From Bacillota bacterium (GTDB lineage: Bacteria; Bacillota; DTU030; DUMP01), in NCBI GenBank assembly GCA_030153805.1, contig JASKLG010000003.1:1-46486 (forward strand): a stretch of DNA of 46,486 bases, in the 5' to 3' direction. Shown piece after piece: positions 18,913 to 42,725 of this stretch (positions within the stretch are counted from its first letter, which is position 1; each line of letters begins with the position of its first letter). A program made the position numbers and the translations under genes. Below the pieces are notes generated by a model. The model saw only the letters and a list, made by a program, of their open reading frames with translations. It was not told the origin of the DNA and ran no database searches.

Positions 18913-19957
18913 CGGTACCCCCCTCTTCGCGCACAATTTCCAGCTCATCCTCCAGGTTGCCGGTTGCCACTATCTGCTCCTCGGGCGTCACTAGCACGGC
19001 CTCGAAGCTTGACAGCTTACGGATCAAGGCCAGGCCCTGGTCCGGCCCGAGGACGAAAACGGCTGTAGAGAGGATGTCCGCTTCCGCGCTGTTTTTGCCG
19101 ATGATGGTGGCAGAAATTGCCTGGGATGCCGGACGGCCCGTCCGCGGATCGAATATATGGTGATAGCGTACGCCGTTTTTAATAAAGTAGCGTTCGTAGT
19201 CACCGGACGTCACCAGGGTTAGGTCCTCGCTCGGCATCACCGCCAAGAGCTCCCCGCCGTGCTCCGGCCGGGGATTCTTGATACCGATCCGCCACGGCCG
19301 TCCGTCCGGACGCCTGCCCACCGCCCAGATGTTGCCTCCGGCATCGATCAGAGCCGAGCGTACGCCGTATCTAAGGAGCACGTCCCGGGCCCGATCGGCT
19401 GCATAGCCTTTAGCTGCGCCTCCCAGGTCGACCCCCATACCTGCCCGCCTAAGGTAGGCGGTTTTTGCCTCTTCATCGAGTACCAGATCGCGCCAGTCGA
19501 CCAGCTCCCTGGCGCGCTCGATCGCTGCCGAGTCAGGCACGTATTTATCTTTTTTTCCAATGCCCCAGAGTACAACGAGCGGCCTTACGGTAACATCGAA
19601 GGCCCCGCCCGATAGCTCAGAATACCGTCGGGCCAGTTTCAGAAGCTCAAAGGTCTCCTCGCTTACGCGAACTGGGCGCCTGCCGGCGTTCTCGTTGATC
19701 CGGCTTACCTCGCTTTTTGGGTCGTTGGCGTCCATCAAATCGGCAATGCGCCGCATCTCTGCCATGGCGGCATTTACCGCTTCCTCTGCCTTGGGCCCGT
19801 AAGCGGTAATGGTGATCAGCGTATCCATCATGAACTCCGTTTTTTCGGCTTTGGCCAGCGACACCTGCCCGATCTGGCCTGGGCCCTTGATGCGGCAGCC
19901 GGTCAAAAGGATTACAGCCAGGGCCAGGGCGAAAAGCCCCCTCTCGTGCCTCCTCAC
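18896..19957 (-). CDS. apbE: FAD:protein FMN transferase ApbE (lipoprotein)
   Basis: A 353-residue ApbE, which takes FAD and attaches FMN through a phosphoester bond to Thr/Ser in target proteins such as RnfD and RnfG, outside the cytoplasmic membrane. It has a lipoprotein signal ending LLTGC (Cys21), DTLITITAYG, DLGGAAKGYAADRARDVL, ALIDAGGNIWAVG and HHIFDPRTGRPA with the metal/FAD residues. The start is GTG at 19957 after GAGGTGATTCCCA. It lies 182 bases downstream of rnfB, beyond a strong hairpin, and translationally overlaps the NusG-II gene. The obvious local substrate is RnfD (Thr162). Confidence 0.93.
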   Translation of the reverse strand: MRRHERGLFALALAVILLTGCRIKGPGQIGQVSLAKAEKTEFMMDTLITITAYGPKAEEAVNAAMAEMRRIADLMDANDPKSEVSRINENAGRRPVRVSEETFELLKLARRYSELSGGAFDVTVRPLVVLWGIGKKDKYVPDSAAIERARELVDWRDLVLDEEAKTAYLRRAGMGVDLGGAAKGYAADRARDVLLRYGVRSALIDAGGNIWAVGRRPDGRPWRIGIKNPRPEHGGELLAVMPSEDLTLVTSGDYERYFIKNGVRYHHIFDPRTGRPASQAISATIIGKNSAEADILSTAVFVLGPDQGLALIRKLSSFEAVLVTPEEQIVATGNLEDELEIVREEGGTGDTGR

Positions 19958-19995
19958 TGGGAATCACCTCAAGCCTATTTTGCCCAGTTTACCCC

Positions 19996-20022
19996 AAGCG
20001 GGGCGCCTAAAACGCCCCGCTT
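19996..20022. terminator. Strong hairpin between rnfB and apbE
   Basis: Perfect 10-bp GC-rich stem AAGCGGGGCG (19996-20005) / CGCCCCGCTT (20013-20022) with a seven-base loop. On the minus strand it is not followed by a T run, so it could be a weak terminator, an RNA-stability element or a processing site that lowers apbE relative to rnf. Confidence 0.55.
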
Positions 20023-20139
20023 GCCAGTTGTACGCCGTGTCCTCAAAGAACAAGCCCTGGCCGTTTGCTTTTTTGGAACCAGGCACAGGCAAAGGCATAC
20101 CGTCGGCACGGCGTTCCTCAAATTTTAGGGCCGCAGGCC

Positions 20140-20955
20140 TTAGTTGGCCACAGCCGCCTTTTCTTTAGCCAGCTTGTTCACGATAATCTTCTGGGGACAT
20201 TTCTCGGCACACCGCCCGCAGTTGGTGCACTTAGCATAATCAATCCGCGCCAAGTTATCCACTACATGGATGGCATCGAATTCGCACGTTTTTTCGCAGA
20301 TGCGGCAGGCAATACAACCGACTTTGCACACCTGGCGCACCTCGCGCCCGGGAGCCGTAGAACTACAGGCTACAAAGACCTTAGCGTGCTCTGGGATCAA
20401 GGTCAGAACGTTTTTCGGGCACGTTTTCACACAGATGCCACAGCCGGTGCACTTCTTCTCGTCTACCACCGGAAGACCGTCCGGCCCCATGCTGAGTGCC
20501 CCAAAGGGGCAGGCGCGCACGCAGTTTCCGAGCCCTACGCAGCCAAAACTGCAGGCCTTGCCGCCCGAACCAAAGGCTGCCGCGCTGCGGCAATCCTGAA
20601 GGCCCTCGTACTTGGCCCGCTGCACGGCCACCCCTCGGCCGCCACGGCAGATAAGGTGGGCGATCATCTTCTCTTCTGTGCCCTCGGACTTAACACCCAT
20701 AATTTCGCTGATCTTCGTAGCCACCGAGGCTCCACCGACCTTACAGGCGTTCACCGGGGCTTCGCCTTTGGCAATTGCCTCGGCGAGACCGCTACAGCCC
20801 GGAAAACCACAGGCGCCACAGTTTGCGCCGGGTAACACTTCATTAATCTGGACGGCCTTTGGGTCCTTCTCTACAGCAAATTTACGGGCCGCGATCCCGA
20901 GGAGGACGCCGAAGAGGAGACCAAGGCCGCCGAGGCTGAGAACTGCTCCCACCAT
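20140..20955 (-). CDS. rnfB: Rnf complex iron-sulfur subunit RnfB
   Basis: A 271-residue RnfB, the ferredoxin-like subunit thought to receive electrons from reduced ferredoxin. It has an N-terminal membrane helix (about residues 3-23), the Fes [4Fe-4S] motif GANCGACGFPGCSGLAEAI, and several ferredoxin motifs: CVGLGNCVRACP, CTGCGICVKTCP, CIACRICEKTCE and CTNCGRCAEKCP. ATG at 20955 follows AAGGGGTGAGAG, 13 bases after rnfA. It is the last gene of the rnf operon. The number of cluster motifs is at the rich end for RnfB. Confidence 0.95.
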   Translation of the reverse strand: MVGAVLSLGGLGLLFGVLLGIAARKFAVEKDPKAVQINEVLPGANCGACGFPGCSGLAEAIAKGEAPVNACKVGGASVATKISEIMGVKSEGTEEKMIAHLICRGGRGVAVQRAKYEGLQDCRSAAAFGSGGKACSFGCVGLGNCVRACPFGALSMGPDGLPVVDEKKCTGCGICVKTCPKNVLTLIPEHAKVFVACSSTAPGREVRQVCKVGCIACRICEKTCEFDAIHVVDNLARIDYAKCTNCGRCAEKCPQKIIVNKLAKEKAAVAN

Positions 20956-20968
20956 GAACTCTCACCCC

Positions 20969-21556
20969 TTAAAAGAGAATCCCGCGGAAAAGCCCCTGAA
21001 AGCCGAAGAAGGCAATGGACATCAGCCCCGTGGAGACCAAAGCTATAGGAAAGCCCTGCATGCTGGGCGGGATGTCGATAAAAGCCCAGCGCTCGCGGAT
21101 GCCGGCGAAGAGGAGAATCGCCAGGGTCCAACCTAGAGCGTTGGCGGCACCGCTTACTACCGCCTGCAGGAATCCATAACCCTCCATGGCGTTAAGGAGT
21201 GCGACGCCCAAAACAGCGCAGTTGGTGGTAATAAGCGGTAGGTAGATGCCCAGGGCCTGATACAGGACCGGGCTTACTTTCATGATTACCATCTCAACGA
21301 ATTGCACCAGCGCAGCTATGACCAGAATGAAGGCCACCGTCTGCATGTACTCCAGATGCAGGGGTACAAGAATAAAGTTCTGGATTAACCATGTGACGGC
21401 GGAAGCCATGGTCATGACGAAGATAACTGCCATACCCATGCCGGTGGCCGTTTCGATTTGTTTGGACACACCAAGGAAGGGGCACAAACCGAGGAAGCGG
21501 CTGAAAATGTAGTTGTTAATGAACATGCCGCCGATGATTATCGCTAGGTATTCCAT
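20969..21556 (-). CDS. rnfA: Rnf complex membrane subunit RnfA
   Basis: A 195-residue integral membrane subunit with six transmembrane helices, homologous to RnfE and NqrE. The conserved NNYIFSRFLGLCPFLGVS with its Cys and the second half TTNCAVLGVAL hold the pair of cysteines that bind a membrane-embedded [2Fe-2S] cluster with RnfE. ATG at 21556 after AGGAGGGTTG. It lies 12 bases downstream of rnfE and 13 bases upstream of rnfB. Confidence 0.95.
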   Translation of the reverse strand: MEYLAIIIGGMFINNYIFSRFLGLCPFLGVSKQIETATGMGMAVIFVMTMASAVTWLIQNFILVPLHLEYMQTVAFILVIAALVQFVEMVIMKVSPVLYQALGIYLPLITTNCAVLGVALLNAMEGYGFLQAVVSGAANALGWTLAILLFAGIRERWAFIDIPPSMQGFPIALVSTGLMSIAFFGFQGLFRGILF

Positions 21557-21568
21557 TTTTCAACCCTC

Positions 21569-22225
21569 CTAGCCCTCGAGGCCAGCGTCCGCCGCGTGCG
21601 AGGGAACCCTCTCCGTTGAGCGGGAATTGCGGGCGGCAAGACGCGCGGTAATGAGGTTCATCGTCCCGAGGAGGAAACCTAAACTGACAAACGCTCCTGG
21701 GGGTAGTATCATAACCGTAGCCGGTTCAAATCCCGCCGGCATGAAGCGGATACCGAACCAGCTGCCATTACCTAGAATTTCGCGGATGCTGGCCAGGATC
21801 ATGATCGCCAGGGTGAAACCAATCCCCATTCCCACGCCGTCGGCCAGTGCCAAATGGACGGGGTTTTTGGATGCAAAAGCCTCGGCCCGGCCTAGAATAA
21901 TGCAGTTCACTACAATCAACGGAACAAAGACACCCAGGATTTTGTGGACATCGGGTTGAACAGCCGCCAGAACTAGGTCGGCAATGGTGGTAAAGGTAGC
22001 GATGACCACGATGAAGCAAGGGATACGGATCTTGTCCGGGATAAACTTTCTGAGCAGCGAAATCAGGATGTTGGAAGCCGTGAGAACAAAGATTACCGCT
22101 AAACCCATCCAGACGCTATTCACTACTGCGGTGGTTACGGCCAGCACCGGACACATGCCGATCACCAGGCGCAGGGTCGGGTTTTCCGGTACAATGCCGT
22201 TATAGAAGGTGCGAAGCATGTTCAT
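21569..22225 (-). CDS. rnfE: Rnf complex membrane subunit RnfE
   Basis: A 218-residue membrane subunit, six helices, related to NqrD. It carries NPTLRLVIGMCPVLAVTTA and LIVVNCIILGRAEAFA with the cysteines expected for the RnfA/RnfE iron-sulfur site. ATG at 22225 (MNMLRTFYNG) was chosen because it has GAGGGAAGTA upstream and the normal N-terminus; a longer frame would run into rnfD. Only 19 bases separate it from the rnfD stop, where most Rnf operons carry rnfG. The C-terminal 20 residues (RSTERVPSHAADAGLEG) are a hydrophilic tail. Confidence 0.94.
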   Translation of the reverse strand: MNMLRTFYNGIVPENPTLRLVIGMCPVLAVTTAVVNSVWMGLAVIFVLTASNILISLLRKFIPDKIRIPCFIVVIATFTTIADLVLAAVQPDVHKILGVFVPLIVVNCIILGRAEAFASKNPVHLALADGVGMGIGFTLAIMILASIREILGNGSWFGIRFMPAGFEPATVMILPPGAFVSLGFLLGTMNLITARLAARNSRSTERVPSHAADAGLEG

Positions 22226-22244
22226 TACTTCCCTCACTCCTTCT

Positions 22245-23222
22245 CTAAGCGCGAGCACGGGTGACGCCGTAGACCCGCGGTAGCGTCCAGCGATCAAGGA
22301 AAGGTACAACCAAGTTCATCAAGAGAATCGAGTAAGAGACTCCCTCAGGGTAACCACCCCAAAGGCGAATAAGGACGGTAATAAAACCGCAGCCGATGCC
22401 GAAGATGAGCCGGCCTTTCGGCGTAATCGGGGAAGTGACGTAATCAGTGGCCATGAAAAAGGCTCCAAGGATAAGTCCGCCTGCGAGAACGTGGTACAGG
22501 GGGTCACCGGTAAACAGGCCGCCTTTGCCGCCAAAAATCCAAGTCAAGAGTGCAACCGTACCGATGAAGCCGGCCGGTGTCCGCCAGTCGATGACCTTCT
22601 GCCAGATGAGGTAGGCTCCGCCCACAAGAAGCGCCAGGGCCGAGGTCTCGCCCAGCACGCCGCCCACGTTGCCGATAAAAAGGTCCAGGTAAGAAGGCAG
22701 CGTTCCGGTAGCTGTTCCCTTGAGAATGGCGAGGGGCGTAGCAGCTGTAATGGAATCAAGCGGCACGGGGAATCTGCCAGTCATGTGCTGGGGCCAAGCC
22801 GCCAGCATGAACGCACGTGCCGCCAAGGCTGGGTTGACGAAGTTCGCCCCTAGGCCGCCGAAGGTTTGTTTTACCACCGCTATGGCAAAGGCAGCGCCCA
22901 CGGCCACCATCCACCAGGGGGCATTGGCCGGCACGTTAAAAGCCAGAAGTAGGCCGGTGAGGGCCGCGCTCCCGTCTGCGATGGTAATCTCCTTCTTCAA
23001 GGCCTTCTGCACCAAAGCTTCCGTAAGAACTGCACTGGCAACGCCCACTAACATCAGTACCAGCGAGCGGATGCCGAAAAAGTATACGCTCACTGCCGCC
23101 GCCGGTATGAGGGCGATGATAACCTGCCACATGAGCCTATCCACCGTCTCCGCCGCTCGGATGTGCGGGGAAGACGCCACAATAAGCTTATCGAAGCTGG
23201 GCACGGCTTTTTTCTCTTCCAT
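22245..23222 (-). CDS. rnfD: Rnf complex membrane subunit RnfD (flavoprotein)
   Basis: A 325-residue membrane subunit with about nine or ten helices, homologous to NqrB. The covalent flavin site is visible as DSITAATPLAILKG, with Thr162 as the likely FMN acceptor; the third residue of the usual (S/T)GAT motif is Ala instead of Gly. SSPHIRAAETVDRLMW at the N-terminus is typical of RnfD. ATG at 23222 lies 13 bases after rnfC. ApbE downstream is its probable flavinating enzyme. In the absence of RnfG it would be the only covalent flavin carrier of the complex encoded here. Confidence 0.94.
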   Translation of the reverse strand: MEEKKAVPSFDKLIVASSPHIRAAETVDRLMWQVIIALIPAAAVSVYFFGIRSLVLMLVGVASAVLTEALVQKALKKEITIADGSAALTGLLLAFNVPANAPWWMVAVGAAFAIAVVKQTFGGLGANFVNPALAARAFMLAAWPQHMTGRFPVPLDSITAATPLAILKGTATGTLPSYLDLFIGNVGGVLGETSALALLVGGAYLIWQKVIDWRTPAGFIGTVALLTWIFGGKGGLFTGDPLYHVLAGGLILGAFFMATDYVTSPITPKGRLIFGIGCGFITVLIRLWGGYPEGVSYSILLMNLVVPFLDRWTLPRVYGVTRARA

Positions 23223-23235
23223 TCCCTGCTCCCTC

Positions 23236-24546
23236 CTACTTACGGCGCCGCCGCGCCAGAACCTCAGCCTTGCCTAAGCGCAGGGCCGGCACCAGGTGCC
23301 GTTTCGACGGACAAACATAAGCGCACGAACCACACTCGATGCAGTCCTGCACGTGGTAATCCTCGGCCAAGTCCCACATCTCTTTGCGACAGAACTGGTC
23401 GAGGAAAGTCGGTATGAGTCCGATTGGGCAGGCGTCTACGCAGCGCCCGCAGCGGATGCAGGCCCGCTCAGGCAAAGTAGTAGCCTCTTCAATCGTAAGG
23501 AGAAGAATTCCCGAAGTCCCTTTAATCACCGGCACGTCTGCCGTGGGTAAGGCAATGCCCATCATCGGCCCGCCGGAAATAATTTTGCCTACCTCTCCCT
23601 CCACGCCGCAGTAGGAGAGGAGATCGCTCACCAGGGTCCCTATCCTTACCCGGAGGTTTTGCGGGTTTTTCACGGGCGTGCCGGTCACCGTAACCACGCG
23701 TTCAACCAGCGGCCGGCCGGTCTCAAGGGCCGTAGCCAAAGCGTACGTGGTGCCCACATTCTGCACCAACGCTCCGGCATCCACCGGCAAGCCACCTGAC
23801 GGCACCTCCCGGCCGAGAATGGCCTTAATGAGCTGCTTTTCCGAGCCTTGTGGGTACTTGGTGCGGAGAGGCACAACCTCAATGTCCTTCTCGTCAGCAG
23901 CCGCCCGCTTAAGGGCGCTTATGGCTTCAGGTTTGTTGTTCTCGATACCGATATAGCCGCGTTTAGCTCCTGTCACCTTAAGCCAGGCCTTGAGCCCGAG
24001 GATGATCTTCTCCGGTTCCTCCACCATAAGGCGCTGGTCACAGGTGAGGAAGGGTTCGCACTCGGCGCCGTTGATAATGACGCTGTCGAAACTCTTGCCC
24101 GGTGGCGGCGACACTTTGACGTGGGTAGGAAACATAGCTCCACCCATGCCCACAAGGCCCGCCTCCCGAATCAAAGCCTTTAAACTTTCGGGGGACAGCT
24201 CCTCTAACTTCCGGCCGGTGGAATCTATCCAGGTATCCGTGCCGTCGCCTTCAATAATCACTGCCGGGGCTTCGCGGCCGGTGGGCAAAAGGCAGGTCTC
24301 AATGCCGACCACCTTACCGGATATGCTGGCATGAACCGGGGCCGAAACAAAGGCTTTGCTCTCCCCGATCTTCTGCCCGACCAGAACCGCATCGCCCTTG
24401 TTCACGAGGGGGTCGCACGGCGCACCGCCCTGGGCGAGTGGAATGACCACACGCCTCGGAAGGGGCGCCGCCTGAATCGGGCTTCCGGCCGTCCGCTCCT
24501 TGGATGGGGCCGGGTGCACCCCCCCCACAAAAGTCCTAAGCTCCAT
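23236..24546 (-). CDS. rnfC: Rnf complex NADH-binding subunit RnfC
   Basis: A 436-residue peripheral subunit with NuoF-like flavin/NAD(H)-binding fold. The N-terminal barrel-sandwich domain (VIPLAQGGAPCDPLVNKGDAV) is followed by the GLVGMGGAMFPTHVKV Gly-rich loop, NGAECEPFLTCD, an SLBB-like segment, and two [4Fe-4S] motifs, CIRCGRCVDACP and CIECGSCAYVCP. It would exchange electrons with NAD+/NADH at the cytoplasmic face. ATG at 24546 after AAGGAGAAACC. First gene of the rnf operon. Confidence 0.95.
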   Translation of the reverse strand: MELRTFVGGVHPAPSKERTAGSPIQAAPLPRRVVIPLAQGGAPCDPLVNKGDAVLVGQKIGESKAFVSAPVHASISGKVVGIETCLLPTGREAPAVIIEGDGTDTWIDSTGRKLEELSPESLKALIREAGLVGMGGAMFPTHVKVSPPPGKSFDSVIINGAECEPFLTCDQRLMVEEPEKIILGLKAWLKVTGAKRGYIGIENNKPEAISALKRAAADEKDIEVVPLRTKYPQGSEKQLIKAILGREVPSGGLPVDAGALVQNVGTTYALATALETGRPLVERVVTVTGTPVKNPQNLRVRIGTLVSDLLSYCGVEGEVGKIISGGPMMGIALPTADVPVIKGTSGILLLTIEEATTLPERACIRCGRCVDACPIGLIPTFLDQFCRKEMWDLAEDYHVQDCIECGSCAYVCPSKRHLVPALRLGKAEVLARRRRK

Positions 24547-24838: not shown

Positions 24839-26563
24839 TTAAAACCGGGACCTGGGGGTGTAGTGGGTGTGAAGGAGTTGGTGGGCTCTCTCGGAAAGCG
24901 GTGCGCCCAGATACTCCTTGTACAGCGTCTGTACGGCCGGGTTCTCGTGGGACTTTCTGAGCGGCATGCTCGCGTCCACTTCATAAATGGCTCTGATTCG
25001 CGCTTCGCGCTTCTCGCGGTCCACCGGAATGGGCTGGCCGCCGCCGCCGATGCAGCCGCCGGGGCAACACATGATCTCCACAAACTGCCAATCGGCCTCG
25101 CCCGCCTTAATTTTGTCCAGCACTTTCTTGGCATTCGCCAGACCGTGGGCCACCGCCACCTTAACGGTCTTGCCGTCCAGGTCCACGGACGCTTCCTTCA
25201 CCCCGTCAAGGCCGCGAACGGCAGTAAAATCGAGACTCTCCAGGGTTTTCCCGGTCACGACTTCATAAACCGTCCTGAGAGCCGCCTCCATCACGCCGCC
25301 CGTCGCCCCGAAAATGGCGCCGGCGCCCGTGGAGATGCCGAGCGGAGCGTCGTATTCTTCCTCCGGCAGGCTCTCAAAATCGATGCCGGCCTCCTTCAGC
25401 ATGCGGGCAAGCTCGCGGGTGGTAAGCACGGCATCCACATCGGGAACGCCCGAGGCCGTCATCTCCGGCCGCTGCGCTTCGAACTTCTTGGCCGTGCAGG
25501 GCATAATCGATACCACGTAGACGTCCTCCGGCTTAAGGCCCATCTTTTCCGCATAATAGGTCTTGGCCAAGGCACCAAACATCTGCTGCGGTGACTTGCA
25601 GCTGGAAACGTGCGGCAGGAGTTCAGGATAGAAGTGTTCGCAGTACTTCACCCACCCGGGACTGCAGGAAGTAATAAGCGGGAGCGGGCCACCCTCCTGG
25701 AGACGCTCGAGGAGCTCGTGCCCTTCCTCCATGATGGTGAGGTCCGCGGTGAAGTCCGTATCGAAAACGCGGTCGAAACCGAGCCTTCTTAAGGCCGCCA
25801 CCATCTTGCCGGTGACGATGGACCCTGGTGGCATCCCCATAGCCTCGCCCACGGAGACGCGCGTGGCCGGCGCCGTCTGCACCACCACGTGCTTCTTCGG
25901 GTCGCCCAAGGCTTTCCATACCGCATCCACGTAGCTCTTTTCCGTGATGGCTCCGGTGGGGCAGACGGTTGAGCATTGGCCACAGGCTACACAGGCCACC
26001 TCGGCCAGGTCGCGGTTGAATAGCGGGAGGATAAGCGTATCCCAGCCGCGGCCCACATACCCTAGGGCGCTTACGCCCTGAACCTCGCTGCACATGCGCA
26101 CGCAGCGGCCGCAGAGGATACACTTGTTGGGGTCGCGCACCAGGGCCGGGCTGGAGGTATCTTTCGGAACGTTCCGTTTCTCTCCCTGGTACCGTACCTC
26201 GCGCACGCCCAGGTCGTGGGCCAGTGTTTGCAGCTCGCAGTTGCCGTTCCTTTCGCAGGTCAAACACTCAAAGGGGTGATTGGCCAGGAGGAGTTCCAGC
26301 GCTGTGCGCCGCGCCTCGCGCACGAAAGGAGTGTTGGTATAAACTTCCATGCCGTTTGACACCGGCATGACGCAGGAGGCTACCAGGCTTTTTGCCCCCT
26401 TCACCTCCACCACGCAAAGGCGGCATGCTCCTTCTGGCTTAAGTTCGGGGTGGTAGCAGAGGGTCGGGATCTTGATCCCAGCCGCACGCGCCGCCTCGAG
26501 AACAGTCATTCCTTTTGCGGCTTGGACTTCCCGCCCGTCTATGGTCAGGGTGATGGTTTCCAT
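24839..26563 (-). CDS. hydA: [FeFe]-hydrogenase catalytic subunit HydA (NAD-linked, bifurcating type)
   Basis: A 574-residue catalytic subunit. In order: an N-terminal [2Fe-2S] domain (Cys36, 47, 50, 64), a His-ligated [4Fe-4S] motif (HPFECLTCERNGNC), two ferredoxin [4Fe-4S] clusters (CILCGRCVRMC, CVACGQCSTVCP) and the H-domain with P1 TSCSPGW (299-304 region), P2 MPCTAKKFE (Cys356) and P3 EIMCCPGGCIGGGGQP (Cys500, Cys504). It would oxidise or evolve H2 while HydB/HydC exchange electrons with NAD(H) and ferredoxin (family knowledge). P1 has Ser after the first Cys where many enzymes have a second Cys. ATG at 26563, 23 bases after hydB. Last gene of the operon. Confidence 0.94.
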   Translation of the reverse strand: METITLTIDGREVQAAKGMTVLEAARAAGIKIPTLCYHPELKPEGACRLCVVEVKGAKSLVASCVMPVSNGMEVYTNTPFVREARRTALELLLANHPFECLTCERNGNCELQTLAHDLGVREVRYQGEKRNVPKDTSSPALVRDPNKCILCGRCVRMCSEVQGVSALGYVGRGWDTLILPLFNRDLAEVACVACGQCSTVCPTGAITEKSYVDAVWKALGDPKKHVVVQTAPATRVSVGEAMGMPPGSIVTGKMVAALRRLGFDRVFDTDFTADLTIMEEGHELLERLQEGGPLPLITSCSPGWVKYCEHFYPELLPHVSSCKSPQQMFGALAKTYYAEKMGLKPEDVYVVSIMPCTAKKFEAQRPEMTASGVPDVDAVLTTRELARMLKEAGIDFESLPEEEYDAPLGISTGAGAIFGATGGVMEAALRTVYEVVTGKTLESLDFTAVRGLDGVKEASVDLDGKTVKVAVAHGLANAKKVLDKIKAGEADWQFVEIMCCPGGCIGGGGQPIPVDREKREARIRAIYEVDASMPLRKSHENPAVQTLYKEYLGAPLSERAHQLLHTHYTPRSRF

Positions 26564-26586: not shown

Positions 26587-28380
26587 TTAGCCGCGGACAA
26601 TGGCGCCGAACGGGCAGCGCTCCATGCAGGCACCGCACTTGATGCACTTGTCGGGGTCGATGAAGTGAACTTCTTTCCTGGTACCTGAAATGGCGCCCAC
26701 CGGGCAAACTTTAGTGCAGGCAGTGCACCCGCGGCAGAGTTCAGGCTTGATGCGGTACACGAGGAGCGCCGCGCAAACGCCGGCCGGGCAACGTTTATCC
26801 TGGATATGAGCCACGTATTCATCGCGGAAGTACCGGAGCGTAGACAGAATCGGGTTGGGAGCGGTCTGCCCCAAACCACAGAGCGCGCTCTGCTTGACTA
26901 CCAAAGCCGTACGCTCTAAGAGGTCAAGGTCTTCCATCTTCCCTTCCCCGCCAACGATCCGGTCCAGAATTTCCAACATACGCTTAATTCCTTCGCGGCA
27001 GGGAGTGCACTTGCCGCAGGATTCCGAGCGGGTGAAGTTCAGGAAGAAGCGGGCCACATCCACGATGCAGGTGTCCTCGTCCATCACCACCAGGCCGCCA
27101 GAACCCATGATGGCACCGGCGCCGGTCAGGGACTCGTAATCTACCGGCAGGTCGAGCTGGCTTTCGGGGAGGCAACCTCCGGAAGGTCCGCCGATCTGCA
27201 CCGCCTTGAATTTCTTGCCGCCCGGGATGCCGCCGCCGATGTCGAAGATGATTTCGCGCAAGGTAATCCCCATGGGCACTTCCACCAGCCCGGTGTTGCG
27301 CACCTTGCCGGTGAGGGCAAACACCTTGGTGCCCTTGCTCTTTTCCGTGCCCATGGAAGCAAACCAGTCGCCGCCCTTTAAGATAATGTCCGGAATGTTG
27401 GCCCAGGTCTCCACGTTGTTGATGTTGGTGGGCTTATCCCACAGACCCTGGTTGGCGGGGAACGGCGGCCTAGGACGCGGCATACCGCGCTGGCCCATGA
27501 TGGAAGCCATAAGCGCCGTTTCTTCGCCGCAAACAAAGGCGCCGGCGCCTTCCTTAATGTGAATACGGAAGGAGAAACTGCTCCCTAAGATGTTATCGCC
27601 GAGGAGGCCCAGCTCTTCGGCCTGCTTCATGGCAATGCGGAGACGCTTTACCGCCAGCGGGTACTCGGCCCGGACATAAATGTATCCCTCGCTGGCCCCG
27701 ATGGCGTAGGCGCCGATGATCATGCCTTCCAGTACCCGGTGCGGGTCGCCCTCCATGATACTGCGATCCATGAAAGCGCCAGGATCACCCTCGTCCCCGT
27801 TGCACACGACGTACTTGGGCTCCCCTGCCGCCTTGCGGCAGAACTCCCACTTGAGCCCGGTGGGGAAGCCGGCACCGCCGCGCCCCCTGAGGCCGGATTT
27901 CTTTACTTCGGCAATAACCTCTTCCGGGGTCATCTCACCAAGCACTTTGGCAAGGGCAGAGTAGCCACCGCGAGCGATATATTCTTCAATTCGTTCGGGG
28001 TTGATGTAGCCGCAGTTCTGCAGAACTACCCGCTTCTGCTTTTGGTAAAAAGGCAAATCGCCATAGTGCGGAACTTTCTCTTCGGTGAGGGGCTCTTTAT
28101 AAAGGAGGCGCTCCACGATCCGGCCTTTATATAGGTGCTCGTTCACAATGTCCGGAACGTCGTCCGGCGTCACGTGGGTGTACATGGTCCCTTCAGGATA
28201 AACGATCACCAAGGGACCCATCTCGCATAGTCCGTGGCAACCGGTGGTAACCACTTTAACCTCTTTGTCCAATCCTTTTGCCAAAAGTTCTTTCTCTAAC
28301 CTGGCCCTAATCTCCGACGATCCGCCTGAAGTACATCCGGTGCCGCCGCAGACCAGGACGTGGGCACGGAATAGATTCAT
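26587..28380 (-). CDS. hydB: Hydrogenase NADH/FMN subunit HydB
   Basis: A 597-residue NuoF-like subunit. The N-terminal thioredoxin-like [2Fe-2S] domain has Cys11, Cys16, Cys48 and Cys52 ([19 protein letters not shown]). Next come the FMN/NADH core ([29 protein letters not shown]), an SLBB domain, the N3-type [11 protein letters not shown] cluster, and a C-terminal 2x[4Fe-4S] ferredoxin domain ([24 protein letters not shown]). This full domain set is that of electron-bifurcating HydB, where the FMN is the proposed branching site. ATG at 28380; 41 bases after the HndB-like gene. Confidence 0.94.
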
Positions 28381-28421: not shown

Positions 28422-28790
28422 CTAGTTGGCCCGGCCGACCACCAGATCCTCGACGATGCGCCCATTGACCACATGTTCGCCGATGATCCGCGGCACATCC
28501 CGCGGCGTAACATGCCCATAAGTAATACGCTTTTCCCCGGGCCGCACCACGTCGACCAGCGGTTCCTTTTCACACATTCCGATACATCCGGTTTGAAGGA
28601 CCGTAGCCTTGATATTCCGTCTGGCCAGTTCCTCCAGGATGGCCGTCATGACTTCCCGGGCTCCCGCCGCAATACCGCACGTTCCCATGCCTACGATGAT
28701 CTGCGTCTCTCCACCTTGACGCGCCTCAACTTCCTTCTGCAGTTCTTCACGCAGGCGCCTCAGGTCATCTAGGCTTTTAAGCTTCGTCAA
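28422..28790 (-). CDS. HndB-like thioredoxin-fold [2Fe-2S] ferredoxin
   Basis: A 122-residue thioredoxin-like [2Fe-2S] protein with the four ligands in MGTCGIAAGA and GCIGMCEKEP, as in HndB of NADP-reducing hydrogenase operons and in the N-terminal domain of HydB. It probably carries electrons within or beside the HydABC complex. The TTG at 28790 is preferred because GGAGGTG lies seven bases upstream; an ATG at 28805 in the same frame lacks a ribosome binding site. The gene overlaps the end of the HATPase gene by 14 bases. Confidence 0.85.
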   Translation of the reverse strand: MTKLKSLDDLRRLREELQKEVEARQGGETQIIVGMGTCGIAAGAREVMTAILEELARRNIKATVLQTGCIGMCEKEPLVDVVRPGEKRITYGHVTPRDVPRIIGEHVVNGRIVEDLVVGRAN

Positions 28791-29340
28791 CTCCGCCACC
28801 TCCATGCAGGCTTGTTAATGCTTCTTGTAAATACCGTTTAAGAAAAGTCAACACCTTGGGATCATTTATCGGAACTTCCCCCAGCTCGCGTCTTACTTCC
28901 CGGGTGCAGAAAGTAAACGTACGGTCGTCCACCGTATGCCGGTAAATGAGGTCGAGCTTGGGAGCTCCCGCAAGCACGGTTACCAGCGTAGCCGGCACAT
29001 CCCCCAGCGGAGGCCGATCCCAATGCCGCAGGCCAAACGTTGCTGTTACAGTAGTTCCTTTTCCTTTTTCCGAAGAGATCTGTACGTCTCCTCCGGCCTG
29101 GCGCGCAGCCATGGCCAAGAGGGAGAGGCCCAACCCTACCCGGCGAGTGGTGCGAGTGGTGGTAAAAGGATCGAGAACCCGGCGAACGAATTCCTGGTCC
29201 ATCCCGGAACCGTTGTCCTTAATCGTGATGATTAGAAGGTCGCCGGCTGCGTCCTCCTTGATCTCGATCACAACTTCCGTAGCACCCGCTGCAAGCGAAT
29301 TCTGCACCAGGTCTAGGATGTGAAGGGCCAGCTCTTCCAT
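28777..29340 (-). CDS. HATPase_c protein (histidine-kinase-like ATPase domain)
   Basis: A 187-residue protein whose first 110 residues form a GHKL ATPase domain: HILDLVQNSLAAGATEV (N box), IKDNGSGMD (G1), GLGLSLLAMAARQAGGDVQI (G2). There is no HisKA phosphoacceptor domain, so it is not a complete kinase. The C-terminal 70 residues have no recognised fold. Proteins of this kind recur inside hydrogenase operons of Thermoanaerobacter-type bacteria; the function is unknown, and kinase or anti-sigma activity is inference. ATG at 29340 is two bases after the hydC stop, so translation is coupled. Confidence 0.82.
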   Translation of the reverse strand: MEELALHILDLVQNSLAAGATEVVIEIKEDAAGDLLIITIKDNGSGMDQEFVRRVLDPFTTTRTTRRVGLGLSLLAMAARQAGGDVQISSEKGKGTTVTATFGLRHWDRPPLGDVPATLVTVLAGAPKLDLIYRHTVDDRTFTFCTREVRRELGEVPINDPKVLTFLKRYLQEALTSLHGGGGVDEA

Positions 29341-29342
29341 CT

Positions 29343-29825
29343 CTATTCGTACCGCGCCAGTACGCCGGCCACCTTGTCCGGAGTCATGCGGCCGTGAGTA
29401 TCCTCGTCCACCATCATTACCGGAGCCAAGCCGCAGCATCCTAGGCAAGCCACCGGTTCCAGGCTAAAGCGCAGATCTTTCGTCGTCTCACCCGGCTTAA
29501 TCCCGAGTTCTTTTTCTACTTCGGCCAAGATCCGGGCTCCGCCGCGCACATGGCAGGCCGTACCCTGGCAGACGCGCACCACATGGCGACCGCGCGGCTT
29601 CAGATGAAACTGGGCGTAAAAGGTGGCCACGCCGTAAATGGTGGTAGCCGGGATGTCAAGAGCCAGCGAAATCTCTTTTATCACGTCTTCCGGAATGTAG
29701 CCGTAGGCCGCTTGAACCTCTTGCAGAATCGGGATCAGCGAGCCTTTTTCTCCCGCGTGGCGGGAAAGGATTTCCTCAAGCTCCGGGTACTTAGGAGCGG
29801 TGTTGCCACAGGCGCATGCGCTCAT
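29343..29825 (-). CDS. hydC: Hydrogenase NuoE-like [2Fe-2S] subunit HydC
   Basis: A 160-residue NuoE-type subunit with the thioredoxin-like [2Fe-2S] fold: Cys pair in CQGTACHVRGG and pair in ACLGCCGLAP. The N-terminal helical part (LIPILQEVQAAYGYIPEDVIKEISLAL) is typical of NuoE/HydC. It connects HydB with the electron-transfer chain. ATG at 29825 follows AGGAGGAAATGCAG; a longer frame to 29849 has no added homology. It sits between the PHP gene (40-base gap) and the HATPase gene, so structural and regulatory genes are mixed. Confidence 0.92.
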   Translation of the reverse strand: MSACACGNTAPKYPELEEILSRHAGEKGSLIPILQEVQAAYGYIPEDVIKEISLALDIPATTIYGVATFYAQFHLKPRGRHVVRVCQGTACHVRGGARILAEVEKELGIKPGETTKDLRFSLEPVACLGCCGLAPVMMVDEDTHGRMTPDKVAGVLARYE

Positions 29826-29865
29826 ACTGCATTTCCTCCTTTGCCTCAACTAACTCGCGTTGTGA

Positions 29866-30654
29866 TTATAGCCTTCCAGGAAGGTCATGGGGCTTGTTTT
29901 CCAAGCTCGACACAATCACCACCTTCCGGCCCTCCAACCCGGCCAGGGCCAAAACCACCTCGGCCAGGGTGGGAGCCGCCACGTAAAACCACGTCGCACG
30001 CGGCGTAGCCAAATCGCTGAGCCGGTGCGCATCAGATGAAGTGATTAGGGAATAACCCGTCAAGGCCGGAAACAAACTCTTAACCTCTTCAGGCGTGACG
30101 CGGCCGGAAATTTCCAGCGCGTCAGGTTCAAGGGCCGGCGGCACCACGCCGAGGTTAGCCAGCAGGCTGAAGGCCGGCCGGTCTACGTGCGCCGGAATGA
30201 ACAGTCCACCGGCACGCCTGGTAATGTCCTGCACTTCTTCTAAGGTGAGCTCGACAGAATTGAGAAGGAGCGTATTTTCAAAGCCCAGAATATTCTCTTC
30301 GGCATCTACAATCACCTGGTCTCCAAAAACCTCCGGGCGATTTTCAATCCGCGGCAGATGGCGTCGGATCTCTTCCCCCACCACCGCTAGAGAAGCCAAA
30401 TCCGGAAAAAAGCAGAGAACGTGAACCTCCTCCCGCGTCTGCACCTCCATCCCCGGGAGTACCGCTATTCCTTCCCGCGCAGCCAGGGCAGCTACCGCCG
30501 GGACGTTGGCCCAGGCGTTGTGGTCGGTAATGCCAAGAAGGCCTATCCCGTTGGCGGCCGCAGCGGCCACGATGGCACGCGGGCCCATCTCCAGTTCGGC
30601 ACAGGGCGAAAGCACGGTGTGAACGTGGAGGTCAGCCTTGAGCCAGCGCAGCAT
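29866..30654 (-). CDS. PHP-domain phosphoesterase
   Basis: A 262-residue PHP-domain protein with metal-binding motifs KADLHVHTVLSPC at the N-terminus, GITDHNAWANV, PGMEVQT, IPAHVDRP and SSDAHRL. Relatives hydrolyse phosphoesters such as nucleotide or histidinol phosphates, usually with two or three metal ions; the substrate here is unknown. PHP genes are frequent in HydABC operons, including the Thermotoga-type locus, so a role in a signalling nucleotide pathway or in cofactor turnover is plausible but unproven. ATG at 30654 overlaps the DRTGG gene by 23 bases. Confidence 0.86.
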   Translation of the reverse strand: MLRWLKADLHVHTVLSPCAELEMGPRAIVAAAAANGIGLLGITDHNAWANVPAVAALAAREGIAVLPGMEVQTREEVHVLCFFPDLASLAVVGEEIRRHLPRIENRPEVFGDQVIVDAEENILGFENTLLLNSVELTLEEVQDITRRAGGLFIPAHVDRPAFSLLANLGVVPPALEPDALEISGRVTPEEVKSLFPALTGYSLITSSDAHRLSDLATPRATWFYVAAPTLAEVVLALAGLEGRKVVIVSSLENKPHDLPGRL

Positions 30655-31006
30655 AGGAGTTCGACGCCCTAATCCCCAGGGCGTAAAGCCGTCCTACCAC
30701 CTCAAAGGCAGGGAGGTTGGTCGTGAAAATTGTGACTCCTTCTGCGTCCGCCTTGCTCAAAGTGTCCTCCTGGGGCTCAATCCCCCCGGCAATGATGATG
30801 CCGGCCAAATTGAGCAGCACGGCCACAGCGACGATGTTCTGGTGGGCCTGGACCGTCACCCAAAGATCACCCTCTCGCGCCCGGGACATGACGTGGCTCA
30901 GGAGGTCGGAAGTGTAGCCGCCCCTTACTTCCCGCTCAAGTCCGGACCGGCCTGCCTTCAGGTTGAGGCCTAGCTCCGGTGCTTCAAGAAGCGTCTTAAG
31001 TTGCAT
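30632..31006 (-). CDS. DRTGG-domain protein 1
   Basis: A 124-residue DRTGG-domain protein (MQLKTLLEAPELGLNLKAG, VRGGYTSDLLSHVMSRAREGDLWVT, then IIIAGGIEP and VTIFTTNLPAFEVVGRLYALG). DRTGG domains occur in phosphotransacetylase N-termini and beside CBS domains, and probably bind small ligands; the ligand is unknown. ATG at 31006 behind GGAGGAGAGCGCG. It overlaps the sensory hydrogenase gene by 11 bases and the PHP gene by 23, which indicates tight translational coupling. Confidence 0.83.
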   Translation of the reverse strand: MQLKTLLEAPELGLNLKAGRSGLEREVRGGYTSDLLSHVMSRAREGDLWVTVQAHQNIVAVAVLLNLAGIIIAGGIEPQEDTLSKADAEGVTIFTTNLPAFEVVGRLYALGIRASNSYAALAQG

Positions 31007-32351
31007 CGCGCTCTCCTCCCTTTGGCGTTCTGTTTTGATCCATGGCCGGTGGTACCAGTTGTGCCAGGTTGTACGTCTCCTGGGCCAAAGCCATGATCTT
31101 TTCGCGCAGCTTAAAAATACAGTCGGTCTCGAGAGCCTTACCCACAGCAATATCCTCGGCCAGGGCACGGCAGGTAGGGGCGCCACAGGAACCACAGTCC
31201 AGCCCGGGTAGGTGCTCTATAAGGGCTTGGACCTGTTGCAGCTTCTCCATAGCGCGCCTTAAGTTCCGGTCCAGGCGCACGATGGGCCGCGGCTCCACTT
31301 TTATTTCCGGAACCTTGGGCATGGGTACGCCGAAAGCGGCCAGGCGCTCAGAAAGCGGCTCGCGGGCGGGAAGGTCGCGGACCAGGTGCCGGAGGCGCAC
31401 GCCGGCCACAAAGCGATTGTTGACGTTAAGGATCCCACCCACACAACCGCCGGGGCAGGCTTGGGCTTCAATGAAGTCTATATCCACCAGCCGGCCCAGC
31501 TCAATTTCCTCGAGCACGCTGATAACGTTGTGAATTCCGTCGACAATTAGGGCGTTTTCAATCCCCGCCGCGGCCACCTCTCCGCCGGAAGCGCCCCACC
31601 CGATCCCCAGGCGGTCGGCGCGGGTAAGGGAGGGCTGCTCCTGGCGCAGGTTCTCAAGCAGACGCCCGTAAACATCCGCCACTGCCAGCACCCGGTCCAC
31701 CTCTGAAGGAACGCCGCCCACCGGGCTTTTCACCGCCGTAACCTTGGCCGGGCAGGGACTTAAGAAGAAGATGCCGACCTTTTCCGGGGCCAAGCCCGTC
31801 TCCTGCATTGCTTTCCTGCGCATCAAAGAAGCGGTCACCTGCATAGGGCTTTCGAGGGGAATGATGTGATCCACCAGCGCTGGAAACCGCACCTGGATAA
31901 GGCGAACTACGGCAGGACAGGCAGAAGAGATGATCGGGCGCAGGTGGTGGTTCTTCTGGAAGTATTCGCGCACCGCCTGCGAAACGATTTCCGCTCCGAG
32001 GGCTACCTCGCAGACCTCGTCGAACCCCAAGGCCTTGACAGCCGCCAGGATGCGTGCCGGGCTCGTGTTTTCTCTGAACTGTCCGTAAAGGGAGGGGGCT
32101 ACGAGCGCTATCCTGTACTCAAAAACCGTAAGCTCTTGGAGGGAATCACGCTCGGCATACTTGGCATGGTTGGGGCAGGCCCGGATGCACTCGCCGCAGT
32201 CAATGCAGCGATCCTCCATGATCTCCGCCTTGCCGTGGCGCACCCGGATGGCTTCCACCGGGCATTTCTTAATGCAGTTCACGCAACCTTTGCACTTCTC
32301 TTTATCCAGTCGCACCGAGTGGAAGTAGTCCATAGCCATCCTTATCCCCAT
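30996..32351 (-). CDS. Sensory-type [FeFe]-hydrogenase (HydS-like)
   Basis: A 451-residue protein with two N-terminal [4Fe-4S] clusters (CKGCVNCIKKCP, CIDCGECIRACP), an H-cluster domain and a C-terminal Fes-type [4Fe-4S] motif (Cys386, 389, 394, 411). The H-cluster motifs are modified: P1 SSACPAVV (Ala144-Cys145), P2 LSPCPAKV (Cys200), P3 EAQACPGGCVGG (Cys299, Cys303). Loss of the first P1 Cys is what is described for the putative H2 sensors HydS of Thermotoga and Thermoanaerobacter. It therefore probably senses H2 or redox state with little turnover (inference). ATG at 32351, three bases after the HATPase gene. Confidence 0.9.
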   Translation of the reverse strand: MGIRMAMDYFHSVRLDKEKCKGCVNCIKKCPVEAIRVRHGKAEIMEDRCIDCGECIRACPNHAKYAERDSLQELTVFEYRIALVAPSLYGQFRENTSPARILAAVKALGFDEVCEVALGAEIVSQAVREYFQKNHHLRPIISSACPAVVRLIQVRFPALVDHIIPLESPMQVTASLMRRKAMQETGLAPEKVGIFFLSPCPAKVTAVKSPVGGVPSEVDRVLAVADVYGRLLENLRQEQPSLTRADRLGIGWGASGGEVAAAGIENALIVDGIHNVISVLEEIELGRLVDIDFIEAQACPGGCVGGILNVNNRFVAGVRLRHLVRDLPAREPLSERLAAFGVPMPKVPEIKVEPRPIVRLDRNLRRAMEKLQQVQALIEHLPGLDCGSCGAPTCRALAEDIAVGKALETDCIFKLREKIMALAQETYNLAQLVPPAMDQNRTPKGGERDAT

Positions 32352-32354
32352 TCC

Positions 32355-32786
32355 TTATGATATTCGAATGACGATCTCTAGTCGCGTTCCCTGGCCAACG
32401 GTACTAGTGATTGTCAGCTTGTCGGCGGACTTTTTAATGTTGGGAAGGCCCATTCCGGCGCCAAAACCCATTTCCCGGATTTCATCTGGGGCAGTGGAGT
32501 ACCCTTCCTGCATGGCCAGGTCGATATCCTGAATTCCCGGACCTTCGTCCTCGGCCACCAGAGTGAGCGCGTCGGGGGTGACCTTTAAGGCCAGCTGGCC
32601 CCGGTAGGCATGAATAATGATGTTCATTTCGGCTTCGTAGGCCGAGATGCTAGCCCGTCTAATAACCTGGGGTGGCAGGTTCAGTGCCTGCAAGACTTTC
32701 TTAATGCGGCTCGCGGCTTCCCCCGCCCGGAGAAAGTCATGCCCGATCACGGGTATCTTCAGGTCGTAGCTAGGATCATGGCTCAT
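32355..32786 (-). CDS. Anti-sigma-factor-like ATPase (RsbW/SpoIIAB type)
   Basis: A 143-residue GHKL ATPase of the anti-sigma regulatory kinase class: SAYEAEMNIIIHAYRGQLAL (N box), VAEDEGPGIQDIDLAM (G1) and MGFGAGMGLPNIKKSADKL (G2). Such proteins bind a sigma factor or phosphorylate an anti-anti-sigma factor; no STAS partner is encoded in this window. ATG at 32786 follows GAGGTG; a TTG at 32804 is less likely. It overlaps the second DRTGG gene by 11 bases and directly precedes the sensory hydrogenase. Confidence 0.86.
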   Translation of the reverse strand: MSHDPSYDLKIPVIGHDFLRAGEAASRIKKVLQALNLPPQVIRRASISAYEAEMNIIIHAYRGQLALKVTPDALTLVAEDEGPGIQDIDLAMQEGYSTAPDEIREMGFGAGMGLPNIKKSADKLTITSTVGQGTRLEIVIRIS

Positions 32787-33144
32787 GGCCGGCACCTCGG
32801 CCAAGCATACAGCCGCCTAACCCGGCCTGAAACAGGAGGCCGCAGGATTCATACATGGGAAAGCGGGTAAGCATTAGGGGTAGGCCCTGGGCGCGGGCCA
32901 ATTCCAGCACCTCCGGACCGGGCCTTTTCCCCCGGACAAAAACGATGCCCGCAAGGTCAATGATCTCCGCCGTTCGCACAACCTGGGGCGTAGTTAGGCC
33001 GGTTAGGAGCAGCGTGCGCTCCTTGCTAAAGGTTAAAACGTCGCTCATGAGATCGGCCCCACAGGCCGTAAGCACGTCTCGTTCCATATCGGCCGGAACC
33101 AGCACCTCAGCCTGGAGAATCTTCACTATTTCGGAAAGCCGCAC
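32776..33144 (-). CDS. DRTGG-domain protein 2
   Basis: A 122-residue DRTGG-domain protein (VRLSEIVKILQAEVLVPADM, ACGADLMSDVLTF, IVFVRGKRPGPEVLELA). It is a diverged second copy of the type found at 30632-31006 and ends with a Cys-containing tail (YESCGLLFQAGLGGCMLGRG) not seen in the other. GTG at 33144 is chosen because GGGGAG lies eight bases upstream; two other GTG codons and a GTG at 33201 lack good ribosome binding sites. It is the first gene of the hydrogenase operon. Ligand and function unknown. Confidence 0.78.
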   Translation of the reverse strand: MRLSEIVKILQAEVLVPADMERDVLTACGADLMSDVLTFSKERTLLLTGLTTPQVVRTAEIIDLAGIVFVRGKRPGPEVLELARAQGLPLMLTRFPMYESCGLLFQAGLGGCMLGRGAGHEP

Positions 33145-33266: not shown

Positions 33267-33333
33267 TGCTATTTTGACAAACCTCCGACGATACCTTATT
33301 CGCTTTCTTTAACAAAATTCCTGCCGCTTGAGC

Positions 33334-33369
33334 AAAAAAAATAAGAACGCCCTCCTTCCAGGCGTCCTT
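33334..33369 (-). terminator. Rho-independent terminator of the SPOR gene
   Basis: Nine-bp stem AAGAACGCC (33343-33351) / GGCGTCCTT (33361-33369) with one G-T pair. On the minus strand it is followed by ATTTTTTTTG, 30 bases past the SPOR-protein stop. Confidence 0.85.
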
Positions 33370-33398: not shown

Positions 33399-34199
33399 CT
33401 ATTCCTCCAGCCCGGCATACCAGCGGGCAAATTCGGCCAGCGCCCGGCTTACCGCCTGCTCGCGCTCGGCGCCCTTCGCCCGGGCAGCCTGAACCAGCTC
33501 GCCCTCTATCCGGCCGAGGAGCCCCATAAGCTCAGTTTTACCTTTAGCAGGGTTTTCTGGCAATCTTTCTGCCGCGGCCGCCATACTTTTTACTTGGGCC
33601 TCTGCCTCGGCAATCCGACCTTCCTCAGCGGCCAGGAGCGCCTCGGCCAATCCGCCGGCAGCCGCCTGGACAAACTCGTAGTACTCTTTATCAGCCGCGG
33701 TATAATCTAGTTCCTTTGCCGCCAGGACTTTAGTGACTACCATAGGCTGTACTTTCTCCTCGGTATACCTCTCCTTAAGCGCTTCGGCGCGCGGGCGCCC
33801 AAAAAAGCTGCCGGCGCGCACCTGAATTAGATTGCCGGCTACCACCTGCTCTGCCGGCCAGCCGTCCTTCTTAATGGCATCGACTAAACGATCGGCGTTG
33901 GCCTTTTGGCTAAAGGCCCCCACTTGCACCTCAAAGAGCCTAAGTTCGGGCAAATTTACCCTTCCGGCCGGAGGCAGTGATGCTGGCGCCTCCGGCTTCG
34001 TAGGCGCCGGAGACACCGGTTGGGCCTGGGAAGCCGGCGGCTGGGCAGGTTTAACCGACGTGGTTTCTCTGAAAAGATAAGAACCGAAGAAATAACCCAG
34101 GGCCACTGCACAAACAGCAGCCACCAGAAACTGCACCAGGCATCCCGTGCCGCCTCTAGGGCGTTTAGGTGCCGGACGGTGTATACGGCGCCCTCCCAT
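33399..34199 (-). CDS. SPOR-domain membrane protein
   Basis: A 266-residue bitopic protein: a basic N-terminus, a transmembrane helix (about residues 21-43), a Pro/Ala-rich linker (45-80) and a SPOR domain (LFEVQVGAFSQKANADRLVDAI and IQVRAGSFFGRPRAEALKERY). SPOR domains bind denuded glycan strands at division septa or the spore cortex. The final 100 residues are Ala/Glu-rich helix. ATG at 34199. It is transcribed alone with its own terminator and diverges from the MFS gene. A role in division or in spore wall remodelling is likely; which one is open. Confidence 0.85.
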   Translation of the reverse strand: MGGRRIHRPAPKRPRGGTGCLVQFLVAAVCAVALGYFFGSYLFRETTSVKPAQPPASQAQPVSPAPTKPEAPASLPPAGRVNLPELRLFEVQVGAFSQKANADRLVDAIKKDGWPAEQVVAGNLIQVRAGSFFGRPRAEALKERYTEEKVQPMVVTKVLAAKELDYTAADKEYYEFVQAAAGGLAEALLAAEEGRIAEAEAQVKSMAAAAERLPENPAKGKTELMGLLGRIEGELVQAARAKGAEREQAVSRALAEFARWYAGLEE

Positions 34200-42570: not shown

Positions 42571-42725
42571 CTCTTATCCAGAGAGGTGGAGGGACTGGCC
42601 CTGTGAAACCTCGGCAACCAGCCGCTCATGCGCGGCCCGGTGCCAATTCCAGCAGGACAAGAGTTGTTGTCCTGGCAGATGAGAGTGCGGAATCATTACC
42701 CCTCCGTCTGTCGGAGGGGTTTTTG
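42571..42725 (+). promoter_or_regulatory. SAM-I (S box) riboswitch with terminator
   Basis: The aptamer spans 42571-42685: P1 arms CTCTTATC and GATGAGAG, and the conserved core AGAGGTGGAGGGACTGGCC, GTGAAACCTCGGCAACC and GGTGCCAATTCCAGCAG. It is followed by an intrinsic terminator, stem CCCCTCCG (42699-42706) / CGGAGGGG (42712-42719), and five Ts. High S-adenosylmethionine would stop transcription before metN. Confidence 0.95.

Follow-up and report, generated by a model that had tools for sequence, protein, structure and literature searches.

A conserved DRTGG-ATPase-HydS gene module beside the bifurcating hydrogenase operon of Bacillota, with a putative role in H2 or redox signalling

We analysed a 46,486-nucleotide stretch of DNA (hereafter the window; GCA_030153805.1, contig JASKLG010000003.1, positions 1-46,486) from a Bacillota bacterium (GTDB DTU030; DUMP01) whose assembly is about 90% complete. 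Ahead of its HydABC hydrogenase genes, on the minus strand, lies a sensory unit of five genes, DRTGG1-ATPase-HydS-DRTGG2-PHP, the order of which is conserved in relatives far beyond chance. The first four products very likely form one complex, as suggested by the natural gene fusions that join them. The first-pass annotation had described positions 28777-33144 as a signalling block with two DRTGG proteins, an RsbW-like ATPase, a HydS, a PHP phosphoesterase and a second GHKL ATPase, and profile matches confirmed the entire gene set.

The unit starts with DRTGG protein 1 (DRTGG1, 32776-33144), followed by a SpoIIAB/RsbW-like GHKL ATPase termed W (32355-32786), the putative sensory [FeFe]-hydrogenase HydS (30996-32351, with an alternative start at 32339), DRTGG protein 2 (DRTGG2, 30632-31006) and a PHP-domain phosphoesterase (PHP, 29866-30654). 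Both DRTGG proteins match PF07085 and carry a conserved D-x-x-S motif, whereas W matches PF13581 and PF02518 and HydS matches PF02906 and PF04060, in addition to two N-terminal 4Fe-4S clusters. The phosphoesterase (PF02811) retains the His, Asp and Glu residues that are conserved at its metal site. The overlaps of 11-23 bases previously claimed for these genes are real, being 11 bp at DRTGG1/W, 11 bp at HydS/DRTGG2 and 23 bp at DRTGG2/PHP; the median gaps at the same junctions in relatives are -10, -4 and -4 bp.

HydS was detected in 161 of 399 genomes of the phylum. Sampling of 140 stretches around HydS plus 80 named loci yielded 203 distinct loci, including the window, once identical HydS sequences had been removed. 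Most of them keep the order DRTGG1-W-HydS-DRTGG2-PHP: W sits directly 5' of HydS in 187 of 201 loci and DRTGG1 sits 5' of W in 156 of 178, while DRTGG2 directly follows HydS in 180 of 199 and PHP follows DRTGG2 in 157 of 171. The hydA gene lies inside the fetched stretch in 126 of 157 loci. At about 19 loci the five genes are divergent from the run hydC-(GHKL2)-Trx-hydB-hydA. Because the order of the module is conserved and sometimes divergent from hydCBA, the block is best described as a five-gene sensory unit plus part of the hydrogenase operon. The annotated interval does contain the sensory genes, but it also includes the structural subunit HydC and thus joins two modules. Its second GHKL ATPase (GHKL2, ~28777-29340; PF02518, with a MutL/HK-like N-box) usually resides between hydC and the gene of a thioredoxin-like protein (Trx), though it adjoins or is fused to PHP in some lineages; it is a bridging part of the two modules, chiefly on the HydABC side.

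Block-type DRTGG proteins are present in 181 of the 399 genomes, covering all 161 that have HydS, and neither is found in 218. The genomes with HydS thus form a strict subset of those with block-type DRTGG, and the co-occurrence is obligate. In one genome (G046; L279, 5165-6493) HydS and W are fragmented while DRTGG1, DRTGG2 and hydABC are kept, representing a decaying sensor block.

The best evidence that DRTGG1, W, HydS and DRTGG2 act together comes from gene fusions. DRTGG1 and W form a continuous reading frame at 11 distinct loci, W is fused to HydS at three (L118/L162/L227 type) and HydS to DRTGG2 at two. Because these fusions join each protein to the next, the four proteins very likely belong to one complex. 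Further fusions link PHP to GHKL2 (three loci) and GHKL2 to Trx (one locus). On the HydS tree, the W-HydS, HydS-DRTGG2 and PHP-GHKL2 fusions each occupy one clade, in different places, whereas the DRTGG1-W fusion needs two changes and has one or two origins. With three kinds of fusion, a conserved gene order and obligate co-occurrence, there is good support for the proposal that HydS, the anti-sigma-type ATPase and the two DRTGG proteins make up a signalling unit centred on HydS.

Sequence comparison revealed that all 16 cluster cysteines of HydS are invariant in 201 of 201 sequences, including the H-cluster ligands C145, C200, C299 and C303, and the C386, C389, C394 and C411 of a C-terminal Cx2Cx4Cx16C motif. 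The Pfam search found the FeS domain PF04060 and no PAS domain. The proton-transfer cysteine (C299 of CpI) is never present in these 201 sequences, its place being taken mostly by A or S; the M353 position is occupied by T or S, and the M497 position mostly by Q, L or N. The model of a W-HydS fusion (pLDDT 91.7, pTM 0.79) has [FeFe]-hydrogenases as its structural matches. In these features HydS agrees with the published group D (M2e) enzymes (PMC8163306, PMC13104023), a group-D-type assignment by motifs and synteny. It is probably an H2 or redox sensor.

The group D enzyme TamHydS of Thermoanaerobacter mathranii is active on H2 with a raised affinity and was proposed to be a sensor (PMC8163306); its gene lies upstream of a bifurcating hydrogenase (PMC8163306, PMC13104023). 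HydS of the window resembles TamHydS in the H-domain and H-cluster cysteines, the two N-terminal 4Fe-4S motifs, the C-terminal Cx2Cx4Cx16C and the lack of PAS, but differs in having Gln instead of Leu at the position equivalent to M497. At the T. wiegelii locus (L193) the genes follow one another as they do in the window, DRTGG1-W-HydS-DRTGG2-PHP-HydC-GHKL2-Trx-HydB-HydA. By contrast, T. maritima HydS possesses a PAS domain and belongs to group C (PMC10055695, PMC13104023). Identity with this type was rejected, as HydS of the window has no PAS, and the previous label "Thermotoga-type" is imprecise, the Thermoanaerobacter enzyme being the closer likeness. The group C enzymes (TmHydS; HydDB C1-C3, PMC5037454) share the sensory-type H-domain and the C-terminal 4Fe-4S site, and are associated with kinases, chemotaxis proteins or phosphatases. 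They carry PAS or direct output domains, however, whereas the output of the window HydS seems to pass via the SpoIIAB-like ATPase and the DRTGG proteins.

Inspection of the sequences also revealed group-C-like HydS paralogues among the sampled loci. Two are fused to a PAS-histidine kinase (L046, 12424-14727; L047, 12671-15007) and two to a methyl-accepting chemotaxis-type domain (L102, 5971-7884; L139, 5845-7758), which fit HydDB C1/C2, whereas a fusion to a sigma-54-type AAA+ activator (L108, 11584-13809) fits none of the three subtypes. The genus of the window has a second, group-C-like HydS about 2 kb from a Rex gene (L013/L293, G007:C35; L014/L294, G006:C1).

The ATPase W has its ATP-site motifs intact in 186 of 190 sequences. 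The GHKL N, G1 and G2 boxes are present, and the residues E, N, D-x-G-x-G and G2 are invariant or nearly so in the alignment. Its closest curated family is SpoIIAB, with 55 bits against the spIIAB model (cut-off 135) compared to 18.9 bits against RsbW (cut-off 145). The model of a relative's DRTGG1-W fusion (pLDDT 90.5, pTM 0.76) gave SpoIIAB as the best PDB matches (TMt 0.85), with RsbW among the top ones but further down. Pfam shows only ATPase domains in W and GHKL2, and a receiver domain is found in none of the 10 operon proteins; a two-component system, with DHp and receiver, was rejected.

The STAS or sigma partner that had been anticipated for W did not emerge. The sole STAS match in the window genome (~90% complete; PF13466 (STAS_2) was outside the search) is SpoIIAA, which sits beside its own SpoIIAB and SigF, and no dedicated STAS partner was found. 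In this genome and four others the single STAS match adjoins the best SpoIIAB-type match; in the window genome and a complete relative these neighbours are SpoIIAA, SpoIIAB and SigF. A single STAS match is found in 41 of 80 block-bearing genomes. Moreover, a genome with the full block (G238, locus L159) has no SigB/F/G-type sigma factor above the curated cut-off. Since the STAS protein is already paired with SpoIIAB and G238 has no such sigma factor above the cut-off, a classical STAS/sigma circuit is not required.

The proposed partners of W are instead the two DRTGG proteins, whose PF07085 scores are 26.1 bits for DRTGG1 and 30.7 bits for DRTGG2 (cut-off 25.2 bits). A relative's DRTGG1 matches the DRTGG-fold protein AF1212 (2ioj) with a TMt of 0.79. 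The window genome and three close relatives encode exactly two DRTGG domains each, both in the block. Compared to AF1212 and the regulatory region of family II pyrophosphatase (3l2b), which share the fold, the block proteins are stand-alone, have the D-x-x-S motif and are encoded beside a GHKL ATPase. The motif, with two hydrophobic residues between Asp and Ser, is conserved in 167 of 169 DRTGG1 and 179 of 179 DRTGG2 sequences, and in the DRTGG2 alignment full invariance is listed for its Asp and Ser alone. In the DRTGG1-W fusion model this Ser opens a helix directly after a strand, which is where STAS proteins such as SpoIIAA carry their phosphorylated Ser. The motif may be special to the block subfamily, albeit on thin evidence; when the block-DRTGG profile was matched to two canonical DRTGG proteins from a relative, the aligned part did not reach it. 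W thus resembles the SpoIIAB/SpoIIAA/SigF and RsbW/RsbV/SigB systems in its SpoIIAB fold and ATP-site motifs, and in proposed partners with a conserved Ser at a helix start after a strand. It differs in that these partners are DRTGG rather than STAS proteins, that no dedicated sigma factor was found, and that relatives encode W in one chain with DRTGG, with a hydrogenase or with a CBS pair.

We propose that the core DRTGG1-W-HydS-DRTGG2, together with PHP, is a signalling complex working by partner switching, with DRTGG proteins taking the role of STAS, a reading for and against which the balance is about even. HydS, with its complete H-cluster site and extra C-terminal 4Fe-4S site, would sense H2 pressure or redox state and thereby control W, a SpoIIAB-type ATPase/serine kinase. 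W would bind the two DRTGG proteins as its partners and probably phosphorylate the Ser of D-x-x-S. One DRTGG protein would carry the signal to the target, most likely DRTGG2, which is retained next to hydABC where the other genes are gone, and PHP might reset the state or remove a small-molecule signal. The target would most likely be the bifurcating machinery encoded next door (HydABC and, in the window, Rnf as well), acted on directly or via transcription. The gene content, the conserved order, the fusions, the intact motifs and the search that found no dedicated STAS partner are observations; we infer that HydS signals to W and that DRTGG is phosphorylated, as well as what PHP does and what the output is. 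A passage of the signal from HydS to the anti-sigma-like ATPase, as the first-pass annotation proposed, is plausible, but its flow and direction are likewise inferred. The description of the circuit as "self-contained" is not supported, as the block contains no output gene.

Several points weigh against this proposal. Each fusion type has few origins, and adjacent overlapping genes fuse easily. In the fusion models (pTM 0.76 and 0.79), the relative placement of the domains is not certain. Mean-field direct coupling analysis between the module proteins, with about 100 effective sequences, scored likely partners and controls alike. Finally, the Ser conserved in the DRTGG proteins could serve to bind a ligand rather than accept a phosphate.

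Further loci were fetched from the 20 genomes that have block-type DRTGG without HydS. At six of them W carries a fused N-terminal CBS pair (three checked with Pfam), in the layout DRTGG1-[CBS-W]-DRTGG2-PHP-GHKL2, also seen beside hydABC in L280, or DRTGG1-[CBS-W]-Trx-Rnf (L276, L278). A link between DRTGG and CBS, as in the regulatory region of family II pyrophosphatase (3l2b), recurs in these clusters; CBS-W is also present in a few HydS loci (L049, L056, L169). Two other HydS-less loci have the layout DRTGG1-W-RseC-Rex-NfnA-NfnB (L287, L288), and in three genomes DRTGG2 alone precedes hydC (L281, L285, L286). Because W of HydS-less genomes can carry a fused CBS pair, and the DRTGG-W unit of such genomes sits near HydABC, Rnf or Rex-NfnAB, the sensor looks exchangeable, and DRTGG-W has the look of a switch that is reused beside complexes for electron bifurcation or ion pumping. 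The clusters of L287 (5822-10836) and L288 are minimal ones, which also encode a multihaem cytochrome between Rex and NfnA.

Upstream of the block, a SigH-type promoter-like element AGGAATTTTGTTAAAGAAAGCGAAT (AGGA, 17 nt, GAAT; 33298-33322, minus strand) fits a predicted SigH-type promoter of the window operon. A terminator-like hairpin with a T run (33343-33369, minus strand), found by a consensus scan that is weak alone, separates the upstream gene (33399-34199) from the block. The SigH motif was mapped in Sporomusa and reported too for M. thermoacetica and T. phaeum (PMC12456013). Of 184 loci, 17 have the strict AGGA-17-GAAT ahead of the block, amounting to 18 sites against 0.26 expected, with related loci being non-independent; the carriers belong to the class of the window, the family that includes Moorella and a further family. 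The motif also precedes spoIIAA in the window genome, and spoIIA is a textbook SigH operon. No SigA-like TTGACA/TATAAT site was found upstream of the block.

Three other explanations compete with DRTGG-for-STAS partner switching. W, DRTGG, PHP, GHKL2 and Trx might directly control the assembly, cofactor loading or activity of HydABC, with HydS as a catalytic or redox-tuning accessory. This finds support in the tight linkage to hydABC, with hydA at 126 of 157 loci, in the position of GHKL2 and Trx inside the hyd gene run, in the three genomes where DRTGG2 stands beside hydC without the rest, and in the extra subunit HydD of A. woodii HydABC (PMC6288185). We nevertheless consider it doubtful, as the block is divergent from hydABC in about 19 loci, DRTGG-ATPase clusters occur beside Rnf or Rex-NfnAB with no hydABC in the fetched stretch, the CBS-W swap resembles sensing, and HydS is devoid of the catalytic proton-transfer Cys throughout.

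The DRTGG-ATPase switch might instead modulate the NADH/NAD+ repressor Rex, and hence the transcription of redox enzymes: Rex lies within the fetched stretch at 44 loci, chiefly in one of three positions (immediately 5' of DRTGG1, behind RseC or behind hydA), and minimal clusters place it between the switch and NfnAB. Most loci have no Rex nearby, however, and the window assembly (~90% complete) gave no Rex match; adjacency can also reflect shared targets only, and many loci share ancestry, all of which makes this route unlikely. Slightly less probable again is that W acts as a genuine anti-sigma factor, paired with a STAS protein and a sigma factor of the SigB/F type. SpoIIAB is its closest curated family and fold, and the SigH-type promoter puts an alternative sigma factor at least in play; yet the 55 bits of W are far under the anti-sigma F cut-off of 135, the only STAS protein found is SpoIIAA, which has a SpoIIAB and SigF of its own, 41 of 80 block genomes have one STAS match, and G238 combines a complete block with no SigB/F/G-type sigma factor over the cut-off.

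Earlier publications already cover group D HydS, its location close to hydABC and two genes that flank it. The module, its fusions, the missing STAS partner, the CBS swap, the likely replacement of STAS by DRTGG and the company of Rnf, NfnAB and Rex look new: open-access literature on DRTGG with hydrogenases or anti-sigma factors gave no description of the module, and the available text of the TamHydS accounts (PMC8163306, PMC13104023) is silent on DRTGG-ATPase fusions, the STAS question and sensor exchange. More broadly, DRTGG proteins and the SpoIIAB-like ATPase might constitute a new class of partner switching, in which DRTGG replaces STAS and an exchangeable sensor (HydS for H2 or redox, a CBS pair for nucleotides) governs flavin-based bifurcating and ion-pumping complexes of anaerobes (HydABC, Rnf, NfnAB), with Rex or SigH as possible intermediaries; we advance this only tentatively. 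As for the signal relay from sensory [FeFe]-hydrogenases, the 2026 work on TamHydS speaks against a messenger role for the redox state of its C-terminal cluster. From the gene record, the components that come next can be named together with the contacts they are likely to make, and the single-chain fusions ATPase-HydS, HydS-DRTGG2 and DRTGG1-ATPase are test proteins that can be expressed directly. If true, the proposal would imply STAS-free partner switching and a shared control of energy-yield enzymes in acetogens, syntrophs and gut Clostridia, and would be useful for H2 and CO2 biotechnology.

The remaining genes of the operon, all on the minus strand, encode the NuoE-like structural subunit HydC (29343-29849), the thioredoxin-like protein of [2Fe-2S] fold (28422-28805), the NuoF-like HydB (26587-28380) and HydA (24839-26563), a group A6 NADH-dependent [FeFe]-hydrogenase. 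With HydA above the curated cut-off (NF040763, 941.7 bits vs 765) and NuoF/NuoE-like partners present, HydABC is of the bifurcating group A type (A3/A6). Downstream of hydA, an Rnf-like run (18896-24546, minus strand) consists of an RnfC-like gene (23236-24546), named from sequence, followed by RnfD-, RnfE-, RnfA-, RnfB- and ApbE-like genes (18896-23222), of which RnfD was named by homology and the rest from sequence. The run leaves no space for RnfG, and FMN_bind (RnfG-type) domains of the window genome are found on other contigs only (C54, C82). A plasmid search added nothing on function. The sole Rfam match of the window is a SAM (S-box) riboswitch at 42571-42685 on the plus strand (95 bits), unrelated to the block.

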